A stretch of 6,103 nucleotides of DNA from Archangium sp. (GTDB lineage Bacteria > Myxococcota > Myxococcia > Myxococcales > Myxococcaceae): positions 1 through 6,103 of the forward strand of contig JAEUJR010000425.1 of assembly GCA_016793585.1 (NCBI GenBank). The letters run 5' to 3'. A program made the position numbers and the translations under genes. Below, in pieces: positions 1-6,103 of the stretch; the first letter of the stretch is position 1; each line of letters begins with the position of its first letter. The notes beneath the pieces were generated by a model, which saw only the letters and a list, made by a program, of their open reading frames with translations, made no database searches and was not told the DNA's origin.

Positions 1-138
1 GCCGACGCGGGAGGCGGGGTGAAGCTCAGCCTCATGCCGAAGGAGTCGAGCCTGCTCCCGTTCGATCCCGCCGGCGACCCCGACCTCACCCGCAAGAAGG
101 ACGCAGCGCCTCAGGGCTTCGTCATCTACAAGTTCTGA
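1..138 (+). CDS. C-terminal fragment of an unidentified protein (5' end outside window)
   Basis: Frame 1 is open from the first base to a TGA at 136-138, giving 45 residues that end in PQGFVIYKF. No start codon is needed because the reading frame enters from outside the window. The fragment is mixed in composition (Gly/Ala/Asp-rich start, a Lys/Asp-rich stretch TRKKDAA, then an aromatic-hydrophobic tail) and shows no membrane segment or recognisable motif. I do not recognise the family. Codon choice is strongly GC-ending, like the following gene, and only three bases separate its stop from the next ATG. It is therefore probably the upstream member of an operon with the dehydrogenase. The coding call rests on this frame and spacing alone. 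Confidence 0.62.
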   Translation, partial: ADAGGGVKLSLMPKESSLLPFDPAGDPDLTRKKDAAPQGFVIYKF

Positions 139-141
139 ATC

Positions 142-1530
142 ATGCCGTTGCCCGCTCCGTTCACTGCCGCCCTCGCAGCCGGTTTTCCTTCCGACTTCTC
201 GACCGCCGAGCCCGCCGAGCTCGCCACCTACGGGAAGGACTGGACGAAGGTCTTCACGCCGAACGCGTCGCTGCTGGTGCGGCCGCGCACGACCGACGAG
301 GTCTCGCGGTTCTTGAAGCTCGCGTACTCGCACGGCGTCGCGGTCGTGCCGAGCGGCGGGCGAACTGGGCTCGCTGGTGGCGCGATGGCGACGAACGGTG
401 AAGTGGTGCTCTCGCTCGAGCGCATGCGCACGCTCCACCCGGTCGACACGCTGGCCATGACGGTGCGTGTGCAGGCCGGCGCGATCACCGAAGCGGTGCA
501 TCAACACTGCGCGAACGAGGGCCTCTTCTGGCCGGTCGACTTCGCGTCGAAGGGCTCGAGCCAGGTGGGCGGCAACATCGCCACCAACGCCGGCGGCGTG
601 CGGGTCATTCGGTATGGGCTGACGCGGAACTGGGTGCTGGGGCTGCAGGTGGTGACGCCGACGGGTGACGTGCTCGAGCTGACCGGCGCCCTCGAGAAGA
701 ACAACACCGGCGTCGATCTGCGGCAGCTCTTCATCGGCAGCGAGGGCATTCTCGGCGTCATCACCGAGGCCACGCTCAAGCTCACCCGCCTGCCCGAGAA
801 GGTCGACGTCTTCCTCTTCTCGGTGCCCGATCTTCAGGGCGTGCTCACGCTCTTCGAAGAGGCGCGCAAGGGGCCCTTCACGGTGATGGCGTACGAGTTC
901 TTCACCGACAAGTGCAGCCGCCGGCTCGAGGCGCACCGCAAGATTCGCCCGCCGTTCGAGACGCCGTCGACGCACGCCGTGCTGCTCGAGGTCGAAGCGG
1001 CCAAGCCCGGCGCGCTCGATGGGTGGCTGAGCTCCCTGTTCGAGCGAGGGCTGGTGACCGATGGAACGCTCGCGGCCGACTCCGATCAGGCGAAGTTCCT
1101 GTGGAGCCTGCGCGAGGGCATCTCGGAGTCACTCTCGGCGACGGGCCTACCGCACAAGAACGACATCTCGCTGCCGATCTCGGGGCTGAAGATCTTCTGC
1201 GACGAGCTCGAGGCGTTGCTCGCGAAGAAGTACCCGGGCTGGGAGCTGTGCCTCTTCGGCCACATCGGCGACGGCAACCTGCACGTGAACATCATGAAGC
1301 CCGACTCGATGGAGAAAGCCGAGTTCCTCGCGCGCACCCACGCCTGTGACGAAGACGTGTTCACGCTCGTGAAGGCGCACCAGGGCTCCATCAGCGCCGA
1401 GCACGGCATCGGGCTCCTCAAGAAGGACTTCCTCGGCTACTCGCGCACCCCCGTCGAGCTCGCCTTGATGCGTGAACTCAAGCGCTCGTTCGACCCCAAA
1501 GGGCTGTTGAACCCCGGCAAGGTGCTCTGA
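142..1530 (+). CDS. FAD-binding D-2-hydroxyacid dehydrogenase (D-2-hydroxyglutarate dehydrogenase / GlcD-like)
   Basis: A 462-residue flavoprotein of the VAO/PCMH superfamily, predicted to oxidise a D-2-hydroxyacid to the 2-oxoacid and pass electrons to an acceptor other than oxygen. The N-terminal FAD domain carries PSGGRTGLAGGA (70-81), VGGNIATNAGG (142-152) and IGSEGILGVITEATLKL (198-214). The C-terminal FAD-oxidase domain carries WSLREG (321-326), FGHIGDGNLHVNI (372-384), SAEHGIG (418-424) and the closing DPKGLLNPGKVL. His374, His381 and Glu420 match the metal ligands known in human D2HGDH, and Arg324, Lys339, Asn383 and His421 match its substrate-contact residues with closely similar spacing. 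The stretch after SAEHGIG (LGYS, then LM..LK, then DPKG) also resembles D2HGDH more than GlcD. Substrate is still inferred; D-lactate or glycolate remain possible. There is no signal peptide and no fused 4Fe-4S domain, and the length is normal for the short form. The ATG at 142 leaves the usual N-terminal lead; no strong Shine-Dalgarno is visible, so coupling to the upstream gene is likely. Confidence 0.95.
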   Translation: MPLPAPFTAALAAGFPSDFSTAEPAELATYGKDWTKVFTPNASLLVRPRTTDEVSRFLKLAYSHGVAVVPSGGRTGLAGGAMATNGEVVLSLERMRTLHPVDTLAMTVRVQAGAITEAVHQHCANEGLFWPVDFASKGSSQVGGNIATNAGGVRVIRYGLTRNWVLGLQVVTPTGDVLELTGALEKNNTGVDLRQLFIGSEGILGVITEATLKLTRLPEKVDVFLFSVPDLQGVLTLFEEARKGPFTVMAYEFFTDKCSRRLEAHRKIRPPFETPSTHAVLLEVEAAKPGALDGWLSSLFERGLVTDGTLAADSDQAKFLWSLREGISESLSATGLPHKNDISLPISGLKIFCDELEALLAKKYPGWELCLFGHIGDGNLHVNIMKPDSMEKAEFLARTHACDEDVFTLVKAHQGSISAEHGIGLLKKDFLGYSRTPVELALMRELKRSFDPKGLLNPGKVL

Positions 1531-1534
1531 GCCC

Positions 1535-2131
1535 TCACTCCACCGAGTCGATGTCGATCTCGACGCTGTAGCGGCCGTACTCGCCCGGTGACTCGTCGGT
1601 CACGCGCATGACCGAGCTGGCGACGTCGATCTCGATCGCCGCGTCGGCGTCTCGCGCGCTGGTCAACGCGTCAGAGACCGTGCTCAACCCGTTCGCGCCG
1701 AGCGCACACTTCGCGGCGTGACGAATCGGCGCGCCGTACAGCACGTTGCCGTCACACTCGACGACCACCCGGCACTCCTGCGGCGACCCAACCACCGGGA
1801 CGACGCCGGCTTCGCAGCGCACGCCGACGTGCGCTGGCGATCTGCCGCTCTCGTGGCGAACCGTGCCCATCACGCGAAAGCCGCCGGGCAGCAGCCGTTC
1901 GGCGACGGTCGCGCCGCGGCTCACCACGGGCGGCGCACGCACGGCGGGCGCAGGCTCGACCACCACCGCTGGCTCGGGCGCCACGGGCTTCTCGACAGGC
2001 GCCTCGACGGCTGCAGGAGCGACGACGACTGCCTCGGGCGAGCGCACGAGCCAGCCGACCGATCCTACCGCCAGCACCACGACGACCGCGACGAGCGCGG
2101 CCCGCTTATTGGAAGCGCCAGACGATGCCAT
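1535..2131 (-). CDS. Small membrane-anchored protein with Ala/Pro/Val-rich linker and four-cysteine C-terminal domain
   Basis: A 198-residue protein that I cannot assign to a named family. Residues 1-10 are short and positively charged (ending NKR), residues 11-29 form one hydrophobic helix, and residues about 31-70 are almost entirely Ala, Pro, Val and Glu, like a periplasm-spanning linker. The rest (about 71-198) is a small domain with cysteines at 106, 120, 126 and 142, a count that allows two disulfides if exported, and an acidic end (EIDIDSVE). The inferred topology is N-terminus in the cytoplasm, single anchor, domain in the periplasm. The ATG at 2131-2129 lies inside the end of the upstream giant gene in another frame, overlapping it by 26 bp. 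The start is supported by the Lys-Arg plus hydrophobic N-terminus rather than by a ribosome-binding site, which is weak. The linker recalls TonB or sporulation-related envelope proteins, but I see no TonB-type C-terminus. Its stop lies 4 bp from that of the convergent dehydrogenase gene. Confidence 0.82.
   Translation of the reverse strand: MASSGASNKRAALVAVVVVLAVGSVGWLVRSPEAVVVAPAAVEAPVEKPVAPEPAVVVEPAPAVRAPPVVSRGATVAERLLPGGFRVMGTVRHESGRSPAHVGVRCEAGVVPVVGSPQECRVVVECDGNVLYGAPIRHAAKCALGANGLSTVSDALTSARDADAAIEIDVASSVMRVTDESPGEYGRYSVEIDIDSVE
2106..2131 (-). promoter_or_regulatory. 26-bp stop/start overlap, probable translational coupling
   Basis: The ATG of the small membrane protein (2131-2129) lies before the TAA of the giant repeat protein (2108-2106) and is read in a different frame. 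The sequence just upstream of the ATG (AACGATCAAG on the coding strand) has no good Shine-Dalgarno core. Re-initiation by ribosomes finishing the upstream gene is therefore the simplest reading. This implies one transcript for the two genes and, by inference, a shared role. Confidence 0.45.
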
Positions 2132-5100
2132 CTTGATCGTTCGTGCCGGCGCCGCGTGACTGGCCCGAGATCACCAGGCGCCCGCTGCCGTCGATGAGCA
2201 GCCCGTGACCGAAGTCGCGCCCGTCGCCGCCGCCCGCGTTGTGCTGGGTGTACACGCCGTCACCGTCGAAGGTGGTGTCGAGCGCGCCGCCACCCGTGAA
2301 GCGATAGATGGCGAGATCGAACCCGGTGCCCGCGTTGTACCGCGTGCCCGCGACGTAGATGCGCCCGCTCGAGTCGAGGGCGACGCCGAGGCGCTGCTCG
2401 TTCACGTTGAGCAGGGCGATGCTGTTCGGGTCAGCGAAGAAGCCCGTGCCGTTGAAGGTGGTGTCGAGGGCGCCCGCCGCTGTGAAGCGCCACACCGTGA
2501 TGCGGGGGTTGCCCGAGGTGAGGGTGCCGTCGGAGGAGTACCCCGCCACCACGATGCGCCCGTCGCTCTGAATCGCGACCGCGCGGCCCGAGTCATTGCG
2601 GGCGCCCGCAGGAGACGCAGCGCCGGTCACCGCGATGCCATCACCATCGAACGAGGTGTCGAGCGTGCCGTTGGTGTTGAGCCGGTACACGACGAGATCG
2701 TCGCCTGCGCCGATCGTCGTGCCGGTCGCGCCAGCGCCGACGATGACGAGCTTGCCGTCGGTCTGACGGGCGATGGCGAACGCTCGCTCGGACGAGTTGG
2801 TGACGGTGTTGCCGTTCGCCGCGCCGTGATGACGGAAGATGCCACCCGTGCCGAACGCGGGGTCGAGCGCGCCGGCGCTGGTGAGCCCCACCACGACGAC
2901 GTCGTTGCCGTTGGTGGCCGTGGCGCTGTAGCCCGCGACCGCGTAGCCGAGCGTCGGCCGAACGACGAGGTCGTGCGCTTGAGCGCTCGCGGTGGCCGAG
3001 CCGCCGCCCAGCGTCGCCCCCGAGTACAGACACGAGCCCGTCGAGCAGAACGAGGTGTCGAGCCCGCCCGCCGCCGTGTAGCGCACGATGGCGAAGTCAC
3101 TGCCGCCACCGACGCGGTCGGAGTAGCCGGAGGCCACGGTGAGGTTGCCGTCGGCCACCACCCCGAAGAACTGATCTCGCCGCGTGCTGTCGTAGAACTG
3201 CGTGCCCGTCGTGTTGAAGGTGGTGAGCGGCGCGCCGCTCGCGTTGAACGCCCACAGCGCGCCGTTCTCGCTCGAGGTGCCCGCGCCCACGACGTTCGTC
3301 CAGCCGACCGCGACGAGCGCGCCGTCGCTGCGCACCGCGACGTCGCTCGCGATGTCCTGGCGGAAGCCGGTGAGGCCGAGCAGGTAGATGCCGTCGCCAC
3401 CGCCGTAGGTGGTGTCGAGCACGCCCGCCGACGTGTAGCGGAGCACCACGGTGTCGTCGTTGAAGCCCGTCACGTTCGTCACCGACTCGCTGTTGCCGAT
3501 GCTGAGAATCTCGCCCGCGCTGGTGATGGCGATGCCAGACGGCGTGTCACCGCGGTTGCCGCCCGCGAGGTTGCTGCGCACGTCGAGGCCGTCGCCCGAG
3601 AACGTGGTGTCGAGCGCACCCGAGGTGGTGACGCGGAAGGTGGCGAGCTCGTTGTCGAAGGCCGGCGTGCCCCAGTACGCGCCTCCGACGATGCGCCCGT
3701 CGGGCTGCACGCCGATGCGCGAGATGGCCGTCGAAGAGGCGCTGCCGAACGTGTACGTCGCGTGGCCGTCTCCATCGAAGCTGGTGTCGAGGGCGCCGGT
3801 CGACAGGTTCCACCGCGAGATGAGGCTCAGGGTGAGGTCGGGGCGGCCGGCGGCGACGAGCCGGTTCGACGCGTCGATGACGCAGCTCTCGTAGTCGCCA
3901 CCCGTGTTGAAGCCCGTGACGAAGCGGCCATCGCCGTCCCAGGTGGTGTCACGGCGGCCGGTGGTGGTGAAGCGCCAGACGGCGGGCGTGTTGTTGTTGA
4001 CCGCGTCACGCGTGAAGCCCGCTCCGTAGATGCGGCCGCTCGAGTCGATGGCGAGATCGAAGATCTGATCGGCCGGCGACGAAGCAGCGCCGCCCGCGAG
4101 CTGATCGGTGACGAAGCCTGCAGGGTCGCTGGCGTTGTCTCCCGTCGGGCCACCGAAGCTGGTGTCGATGGTGCCGTTCGTGTTGAGGCGCCCGACGAAG
4201 AGCTTGTTGTTCGTCGCGGGCGTGACGTTGCGCGAGATGCCGGCGATCACGATCTTGCCGTCGCTCTGCAGGCTGACGGCGGCGACGCGATCGAGGTTGT
4301 TGCCACCGGCGACGTTGTTGAAGGTGAAGCGCCCCTGGGTGCCGAAGGTGGTGTCGTACGCGCCGGTGTCGTTGAGGCGCACCACGAGCAGGTCGTCGCC
4401 GTTCGTGTTCCCGAAGGTGTCGCCGACGATGACGATCTGCCCGGTCGAGGTGATGGCGACGTCGGCGAAACGATCGAACGTGCCGCTGCGGCCAGCGTTG
4501 GGGAAGAAGAGAACGCCGTTGGAGCCGAAGGTGGTGTCGGGCGTGCCGTTGGCGTTGAGGCGCAGCACGAAGCCGACGTCGAGGCTGCCACTGGCGTTGC
4601 CGACGACGATCAGCTTGCCGGCGTGGGTGCCGACGGTGATGAGCGCCGACGCGTTGCTGCTGTCTTTCGCGTTGCTGGTGCCAGGGCTGGGCGTCACGCC
4701 CTCGGCGTCTCCGTCGGAGGCGAAGGTGAGATCGGGGCCGAACGCGGCGAAGCACACCCCACCCGCAGTGCAGGTGCCGCTCTGAGCGCCAGAAGTGCAC
4801 GCGGTGCCGGCGGGCTCGGTGCCGTCGGCCGGGCAGGCTGCCGACGAGCCGGTGCACGACTCGGCACGATCGCAGCCAGCGCCGTCGGAGTCAGCGCGGC
4901 AGGTGACGGTCGCGGCGAGGAACGAGTCGGCGGGACAGGTCGCGGCCGTGCCGTTGCAGGTCTCTGCGGAGTCGCAGACGCCGGCCGAGGCGCGGCAGAC
5001 GGTGCCTGCTACGGTACGGGCATCACCGGGGCAGGCCGCGCTGGTGCCGCTGCAGCTCTCTTGAGGGTCACAGGCGCCAGCCGACGCCCTGCACACGGTG

Positions 5101-6044
5101 CCCGCAGTGAGGAAGGAGTCGTTGGGGCAGGCGCTCGAGGTGCCAGTGCACTGCTCAGAGGTGTCACACGCTCCAGCCGACGCTCGGCACACCGTGGTCG
5201 CAGAGACGAAGACGTCGGAAGGGCATGCGCCCGAAGAGCCAGTGCAGAACTCAGCCGCGTCGCAGATGCCCGCTGAAGCACGGCAGATGACGTTGTTGGC
5301 AGACAGCGCGTTGGCCGGGCAGGCCGCTGACGAACCGGTGCACGTCTCCTGGGGGTCGCACACGCCCGTGGAGGCGCGACAGACGACCGTGCCGCTCGAG
5401 AACGTGTCGGAGGGGCACGCCGCGCTCGTTCCACTGCACGTCTCGGCCACGTCGCACGTGCCAGCTGATGGACGGCACACGACGGTGTTGGCGGCGAGCG
5501 TGTCGGAGGGGCACGCCGCGCTCGTTCCACTGCACGTCTCGGCCACGTCGCAGCCGCCAGCCGACGCACGGCACACGACGGTGTTGGCCGCGAGGGTGTC
5601 AGAGGGGCACGCCGCGCTCGTTCCACTGCACGTTTCGGCCACGTCGCACGTTCCTGCCGACGCGCGGCAGACGACGGTGTTGGCCGCGAGGGTGTCCGAG
5701 GGGCACGCCGCGCTCGTTCCACTGCACGTCTCGGCCACGTCGCAGGCTCCAGCCGATGCACGGCAGACGACGGTGGCGCTCGCGAGCGTGTCAGAGGGGC
5801 ATGCCGCGCTCGTTCCACTGCACGTCTCGGCCACGTCGCACGTTCCTGCCGATGGACGGCAGACGACGGTGTTGGCGGCGAGTGTGTCAGACGGGCACGC
5901 GGTCGACGTTCCACTGCACGTCTCTGCGACGTCACAGCCACCAGCCGACGCGCGGCAGACGACGGTTGCGCTCGCGAGCGTGTCAGAGGGGCACGCCGCA
6001 GACGTTCCACTGCACGTCTCGGCGACGTCGCACGCGCCAGCAGA
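2106..6044 (-). CDS. Giant repeat protein: disintegrin-like Cys-rich array plus delta-60 (DUF5122-type) propeller repeats, 5' truncated
   Basis: About 1,313 genuine residues are visible, ending in VWRFQ and TAA at 2108-2106; the N-terminus is missing. The open frame formally continues to a GTG at 6059-6057, but that codon lies in Illumina adapter sequence, so I end the gene at 6044. Residue numbers here and elsewhere count from that false GTG. Domain order: residues about 6-420, thirteen cysteine-rich units of 32 residues (the first clipped, the last 34); residues 421-436, a short cysteine cap (CTSGAQSGTCTAGGVC); residues about 440-1317, roughly fourteen delta-60 repeats, each with a DTTF-like turn followed by a DGKIVIAG-like strand and an (I/V)xR(L/F/Y) strand. 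Delta-60 repeats (TIGR02608, Pfam DUF5122) are common in myxobacterial secreted proteins and are thought to form beta-propellers. The disulfide-rich array implies export, though any signal peptide lies beyond the contig. The propeller half is nearly cysteine-free apart from Cys726 and the close pair Cys1005/Cys1010. Role unknown; surface adhesion or partner binding is my inference. The small downstream gene overlaps its stop. Confidence 0.93.
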   Translation of the reverse strand, partial: SAGACDVAETCSGTSAACPSDTLASATVVCRASAGGCDVAETCSGTSTACPSDTLAANTVVCRPSAGTCDVAETCSGTSAACPSDTLASATVVCRASAGACDVAETCSGTSAACPSDTLAANTVVCRASAGTCDVAETCSGTSAACPSDTLAANTVVCRASAGGCDVAETCSGTSAACPSDTLAANTVVCRPSAGTCDVAETCSGTSAACPSDTFSSGTVVCRASTGVCDPQETCTGSSAACPANALSANNVICRASAGICDAAEFCTGSSGACPSDVFVSATTVCRASAGACDTSEQCTGTSSACPNDSFLTAGTVCRASAGACDPQESCSGTSAACPGDARTVAGTVCRASAGVCDSAETCNGTAATCPADSFLAATVTCRADSDGAGCDRAESCTGSSAACPADGTEPAGTACTSGAQSGTCTAGGVCFAAFGPDLTFASDGDAEGVTPSPGTSNAKDSSNASALITVGTHAGKLIVVGNASGSLDVGFVLRLNANGTPDTTFGSNGVLFFPNAGRSGTFDRFADVAITSTGQIVIVGDTFGNTNGDDLLVVRLNDTGAYDTTFGTQGRFTFNNVAGGNNLDRVAAVSLQSDGKIVIAGISRNVTPATNNKLFVGRLNTNGTIDTSFGGPTGDNASDPAGFVTDQLAGGAASSPADQIFDLAIDSSGRIYGAGFTRDAVNNNTPAVWRFTTTGRRDTTWDGDGRFVTGFNTGGDYESCVIDASNRLVAAGRPDLTLSLISRWNLSTGALDTSFDGDGHATYTFGSASSTAISRIGVQPDGRIVGGAYWGTPAFDNELATFRVTTSGALDTTFSGDGLDVRSNLAGGNRGDTPSGIAITSAGEILSIGNSESVTNVTGFNDDTVVLRYTSAGVLDTTYGGGDGIYLLGLTGFRQDIASDVAVRSDGALVAVGWTNVVGAGTSSENGALWAFNASGAPLTTFNTTGTQFYDSTRRDQFFGVVADGNLTVASGYSDRVGGGSDFAIVRYTAAGGLDTSFCSTGSCLYSGATLGGGSATASAQAHDLVVRPTLGYAVAGYSATATNGNDVVVVGLTSAGALDPAFGTGGIFRHHGAANGNTVTNSSERAFAIARQTDGKLVIVGAGATGTTIGAGDDLVVYRLNTNGTLDTSFDGDGIAVTGAASPAGARNDSGRAVAIQSDGRIVVAGYSSDGTLTSGNPRITVWRFTAAGALDTTFNGTGFFADPNSIALLNVNEQRLGVALDSSGRIYVAGTRYNAGTGFDLAIYRFTGGGALDTTFDGDGVYTQHNAGGGDGRDFGHGLLIDGSGRLVISGQSRGAGTNDQDGIVWRFQ
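2109..4742 (-). repeat. Delta-60 / DUF5122-type beta-propeller repeats (about 14)
   Basis: On the coding strand a DTTF-type motif recurs at about plus-strand positions 4720 (as DLTF), 4528, 4345, 4157, 3938, 3777, 3600, 3405, 3212 (degenerate), 3049, 2854, 2650, 2454 and 2266. Spacing is 161 to 219 bp, averaging near 188 bp or 62 residues. Each repeat starts with an N/T-x-x-G turn before the DTTF motif, continues with a Gly/Asp-rich loop, then a strand like SDGKIVIAG and a closing strand such as LVVRL or AVWRF. This is the delta-60 consensus known from deltaproteobacteria. The units are diverged at the DNA level, unlike the cysteine array. One repeat reads APLTTF instead of an Asp-first motif, and one carries a Cys-x4-Cys pair just after DTSF. 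Confidence 0.92.
4752..6044 (-). repeat. 96-bp tandem array encoding 32-residue disintegrin-like cysteine repeats
   Basis: Thirteen consecutive units are visible, each beginning at a Cys-Arg pair. Minus-strand unit starts are at 5957, 5861, 5765, 5669, 5573, 5477, 5381, 5285, 5189, 5093, 4997 and 4901, with one clipped unit before them. Each unit has cysteines at positions 1, 8, 14 and 21, plus Arg2, Asp9, Glu12, Gly16, Ser18 (Thr, Ala in few) and Pro22; position 24 is mostly Asp. The last unit (4901-4800) has a two-residue insertion before its second cysteine, and 4799-4752 is a degenerate cysteine cap. Units from 5382 upward are nearly identical in DNA; for example the two units at 5574-5765 differ at about 8 of 96 bases by eye. 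Units below 5382 are more divergent in sequence but keep the cysteines. The array runs into the contig end, so its true copy number is unknown. Confidence 0.95.
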
Positions 6045-6078
6045 AGATCGGAAGAGCACACGGCAGAACGCCAGCCAG
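6045..6078 (+). other. Illumina TruSeq adapter read-through (non-genomic)
   Basis: Positions 6045-6062 read AGATCGGAAGAGCACACG, an exact 18-nt match to the start of the TruSeq read-1 (index) adapter. The next 16 bases (6063-6078) match the following adapter bases at 11 of 16 positions, as expected from the low-quality tail of a read. The junction falls between 6044 and 6045: at 6044 the cysteine repeat is still in register (SAG preserved), while at 6045 the expected Ala or Pro codon is replaced by adapter. The translations on both strands show familiar adapter products, MLFRS and MCSSDL on minus and DRKSTR on plus. Confidence 0.97.
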
Positions 6079-6103
6079 TGAAAGGGCGCGCCGGAGGAGG
6101 GTG
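6079..6103. other. Unassigned contig tail after adapter
   Basis: These 25 bases follow the adapter match and do not continue the 96-bp repeat. By position they would be the index and flow-cell part of the adapter, but they match that sequence poorly. They are most likely low-quality read end or chimeric sequence and should not be treated as genome. Confidence 0.7.

Follow-up and report, generated by a model that had tools for sequence, protein, structure and literature searches.

An apparent start codon within a TruSeq adapter match at the end of a myxobacterial repeat-gene sequence

The window (the whole 6,103-nt stretch of Archangium sp. DNA analysed here) ends in 59 bases that, almost certainly, are residual sequencing adapter and noise, foreign to the organism, and the apparent start of the large repeat protein that reads out of them is therefore false. 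For 6045-6062 in particular, we have very little doubt that the sequence is adapter and that the start codon lying in it is an artefact. In practice, these 59 bases need to be trimmed off, and the protein is best handled as 5′-truncated; its N-terminal residues are unfit for alignments, signal-peptide predictions and start-site statistics.

For comparison we used the 34-nt TruSeq read-1 adapter sequence. Placed along the window without gaps, it matches at 29 of 34 positions from 6045, and the runner-up place reaches 19/34. The first 18 nt, AGATCGGAAGAGCACACG, are matched exactly at 6045-6062 on the plus strand, which is the sole match in the window with up to three mismatches permitted. This 18-mer ends 41 nt short of the window end and points outward, toward what would also be the end of the contig. 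The match is well over chance for the core (18/18) and over the full length (29/34). The next 16 nt agree with the adapter at 11 positions, a level attained at no start position among the 6000 examined (1-6000). An exact 18-nt match with an 11/16 continuation from 6045 had been claimed in the original prediction, with coordinates and counts that are correct, and the alignment of the window end to the adapter that it proposed gives the 18/18 and 29/34 agreement above.

The junction with genuine sequence is sharp. Homology to the repeats extends to the codon at 6044-6042 (TCT, Ser), which fits the ASAG of the repeat unit, and the first adapter codon is 6047-6045, placing the junction at 6044/6045. 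The fit to the 96-bp repeat array holds as far as 6044 and then ends, so that, as had been proposed, adapter stands from 6045 in place of the expected repeat sequence. On the minus strand the codon at 6059-6057 is GTG, and its frame reads V/M-L-F-R-S; the position and reading given earlier for this false N-terminus inside the adapter are thus correct. In the same frame the canonical adapter reads *LEFRRVLFRS, and here the reading is WLAFCRVLFRS. Because the usual in-frame TGA of the adapter is changed in this copy, the ORF is open to the window edge (1331 aa open-ended, versus 1317 aa counted from the GTG), and the output of a gene caller might therefore be an open-ended 5′-partial gene, still with false residues. 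The earlier statement that a gene caller would start at the GTG is consequently overstated, since this is not the sole possible outcome. Whichever start is chosen, the residues ahead of the Ser are foreign to the organism.

Table 1. Features of the window discussed in the text.
Feature	Positions	Strand	Basis or remark
Exact 18-nt TruSeq read-1 adapter, AGATCGGAAGAGCACACG	6045..6062	+	Pattern match; pieces of the adapter in print in PMC11536531
Degraded adapter continuation, 11/16	6063..6078	+	Mismatches at adapter positions 19, 21, 26, 31 and 34
False GTG start, inside adapter	6057..6059	-	Codon reading of window
Tail, presumed index and noise	6079..6103	+	Negative results: neither far part of adapter nor repeat array
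Cys-rich, disintegrin-like repeat array (13 units of 32 aa, 96-bp period), truncated at 6044	4805..6044	-	Inner boundary approximate
C-terminal part of same gene: delta-60 repeats (TIGR02608, PF17164), stop at 2108-2106	2106..4804	-	Profile matches

Related genomes, where the original prediction had suggested looking for a continuation of the repeat, supply one. Two full-length relatives among the best 120 of 2745, P0002 and P0003, are 68% and 67% identical to the window protein and go on with repeats past the point at which homology ends at the adapter. They carry 21 and 19 repeat units, respectively, after an N-terminus, MTFGSPRLVALWCVLVVSSVGCNC..., that is lipoprotein- or signal-like by eye; the real gene therefore most likely extends past the window edge through further repeats, and the GTG at 6059-6057 is not its real start. 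The two proteins are nearly identical, yet two repeat units apart. The closest of the same best 120 of 2745 relatives is P0001 (Archangiaceae MAG, 90%), which is listed as partial and has the same protein length as that of L139, the sole relative confirmed from 40 candidate stretches in a scan of genome contigs. L139, likewise from an Archangiaceae MAG, has a 93%-identical protein segment and can be aligned to the greater part of the window with 87% nucleotide identity; its contig also ends inside the same repeat array. On the whole, then, the earlier reading stands in its main parts, namely the adapter end, the repeat cut there and the GTG in the adapter, and is weaker in two side claims, on the gene-caller start and on database entries.

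The 18-mer is found at contig ends in other genomes as well. Among 145 genomes from the order to which the nearest relative belongs, three carry it, with 13 matches in all, every one at 0-72 nt from a contig end; the other 142 genomes gave no match to the 18-mer, and a reversed control pattern gave none in the 145. The three genomes (G055, G095 and G131; loci L153-L165) have it at contig ends in six, five and two places. These results bear on the reading of the 18-mer as natural sequence, that is, as a variant copy of the repeat or as inserted DNA, with the real start farther upstream. The reading frame is open throughout, as such a reading would have it, and a Cys-Arg pair is kept, by chance, near the place of the repeats' own Cys-Arg. 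However, only 9.4 × 10^-8 occurrences of the 18-mer are expected in the 6103-base window from its base composition, no copy lies away from a contig end in the 145 genomes, and the match coincides with both the loss of repeat homology and the end of the window. We consider a natural origin extremely improbable.

A sample of viral contigs (IMG/VR; at least 120 stretches with at least 128 matches to the 18-mer) shows the same placement. Among the 128 matches listed, 125 are no more than 250 nt from the contig end to which they point, and the median for all 128 is 24 nt. Where 16 nt or more follow a listed terminal match, the adapter continuation is exact in 71 of 78 cases and agrees at 13-15 of 16 positions in the other seven. 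The three non-terminal cases among the 128 are L018, which continues as adapter, L043, which is cut at the locus edge, and L057. In a second IMG/VR scan, for matches whose position 19 is not T, 18 loci came up, which by eye comprise slightly mutated adapters, adapter-adapter joins, matches at most a few bases from contig ends, a few copies with unrelated continuations and an N gap. Four of the 18 (L126, L131, L133 and L138) lie at least 590 nt from the end to which they point and run on into unrelated sequence, an N gap or a second adapter; the 18-mer alone is thus not an infallible marker of an adapter end. In L124 (4330-4348) and L131 (132-150) the 18-mer is directly followed by CGCTCTTCCGATCT, i.e., two adapters are joined within the contig.

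Adapter at contig ends is an ordinary assembly artefact, already published by Moeller et al. (2024, BMC Genomics, PMC11536531), where it is described as concentrated at the contig ends of MGnify genomes and where the adapter pieces AGATCGGAAGAG and CACACGTCTGAACTCCAGTCA are given in print. The contamination described there is of the same kind as ours: AGATCGGAAGAG and the forward-specific CACACG... stretch lie at the contig's right end, in forward orientation. Relative to that description, the window differs in two respects: strong degradation marks the continuation past the 18 nt, and the break falls in a coding repeat array, so that the adapter supplies a false start codon.

The sequence most probably arose as follows. 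The window would be one fragment of a short-read assembly, its source a myxobacterial relative of the Archangiaceae MAG, and assembly would have halted inside the array of near-identical 96-bp repeats. We infer that the tip was extended by short-insert reads that went through the end of the insert and on into the 3′ TruSeq adapter. On this account the insert ends at 6044, 6045-6078 is adapter, with its later part rich in errors, and what follows is index or sequence of low quality. The ORF thus opens with codons of translated adapter, and the real gene would extend farther upstream, with additional repeats and a signal of the secretion or lipoprotein type.

Beyond the core, the 16-nt continuation is unusually divergent, with 11/16 here versus 13-16/16 in the 78 IMG/VR cases among the matches listed. 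Its five mismatches comprise all four T's and one C, and 11 of the 12 other bases are kept; the loss of all four T's has a p of 0.003, calculated post hoc. In the 25 bases after 6078, a search for the post-index adapter with an index of 0, 6, 8 or 10 nt gave no signal (5/19 with a 6-nt index, p 0.32; 5/17 with 8 nt, p 0.27), and nothing past the 16-nt continuation is recognisable as index or P7. Compared with the rest of the window, 6063-6103 has a best match of 24/41, which is equalled by 82 of 200 shuffles; a control segment from the array (6004-6044) finds a 38/41 match within 1-5940.

This divergence invites a second reading, which shares the adapter core with the one preferred here and takes 6063-6103 to be another fragment, attached by chimeric ligation or misassembly. 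The continuation reaches just 11/16 and the last 25 bases are not over chance against the adapter, the G+C of 6063-6103 is 29/41, like that of the window, and adapter-adapter joins are known in IMG/VR (L124 and L131). Nevertheless, 11/16 at this fixed continuation position has an iid chance of 1.35 × 10^-4, the segment is without similarity to the window, and the best ungapped match of 6045-6103 in the 13.7-kb L139 is 30/59, as a raw count. A chimeric tail is in our judgment rather unlikely, and we favor degraded adapter followed by index or noise.

Each aligned 23-mer or 25-mer in the 34 nt differs from the adapter at two or more positions, so that k-mer trimming at settings that allow one mismatch would miss this copy, and we infer that the tail may have escaped trimming in this way. 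A tentative and somewhat doubtful extension is that the adapter remnants surviving trimming form a selected subset with at least two mismatches per trimming k-mer. If so, degraded adapters like this one, which has lost all four T's of the continuation, would be a hidden class of contamination, escaping screens for the full exact adapter. The T losses may come from base-calling noise or from consensus or error-correction effects. The exact start of the degraded tail, GAGCACACGGCAGAACGCCAG, has no match in IMG/VR, and neither does the degraded-tail pattern in which each of the four T positions may hold any non-T base. The shorter pattern GAGCACACGVCVGAAC, sought in 195 genomes of the phylum, gave eight matches in eight genomes, versus two for a reversed control, and is too short to be informative.

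Translated adapter does occur in protein collections generally. A 40-aa query, composed of the adapter end of a viral contig (about 25 aa) and its flank, matched 115 proteins at E ≤ 0.001 among 125 candidates in a search that admits only proteins of 0.55-1.75 times the query length; CSSDL is present in 112 of the 115, and near versions of it in the other three. The caution about N-terminal residues is therefore a general one. A search for adapter together with CSSDL found no paper in the literature collection covered. For the repeat protein itself, the claim that any database entry from this contig would be a false complete protein found no instance: VLFRS, CSSDL and CALPI are present in none of the 211 listed relatives, which are the best 120 of 2745 together with further ones among the best 120 of 215. 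The latter set comes from a query with the first 40 residues of the ORF, which was swamped by disintegrin-like repeats and says little on adapter peptides.

The genuine part of the ORF (2106-6044, minus strand) joins Cys-rich, half-disintegrin-like repeats to a delta-60 region. PF00200 matches in 13 stretches (2.8e-70), and a motif count also gives 13 copies; these are followed by the delta-60 repeats (PF17164, 5e-50; TIGR02608, 8.4e-124). In this order of PF00200 and then PF17164/TIGR02608 repeats, the window copy is of the same type as the myxobacterial disintegrin-like/delta-60 proteins, and it differs from their full-length members in that the N-terminus is missing as the sequence ends; being cut, it has neither its own start nor a signal peptide. 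By our reading of the listing, PF00200 is present in 118 of the 120 relatives listed (best 120 of 2745).

Two other ORFs lie beyond the end of the repeat gene. The nearer one (198 aa, 1535-2131, minus strand) shares 26 nt with the end of the repeat gene and has a possible N-terminal membrane segment by eye; it has no Pfam or NCBIfam match at E ≤ 0.01. L139 shows an overlap of similar kind, between an ORF at 3716-4330 and a stop at 3741. The farther one (142-1530, plus strand) encodes an FAD-linked oxidase of the GlcD/D-lactate dehydrogenase type (PF02913, PF01565), and L139 has an ORF of the same length as this oxidase, in the same order.
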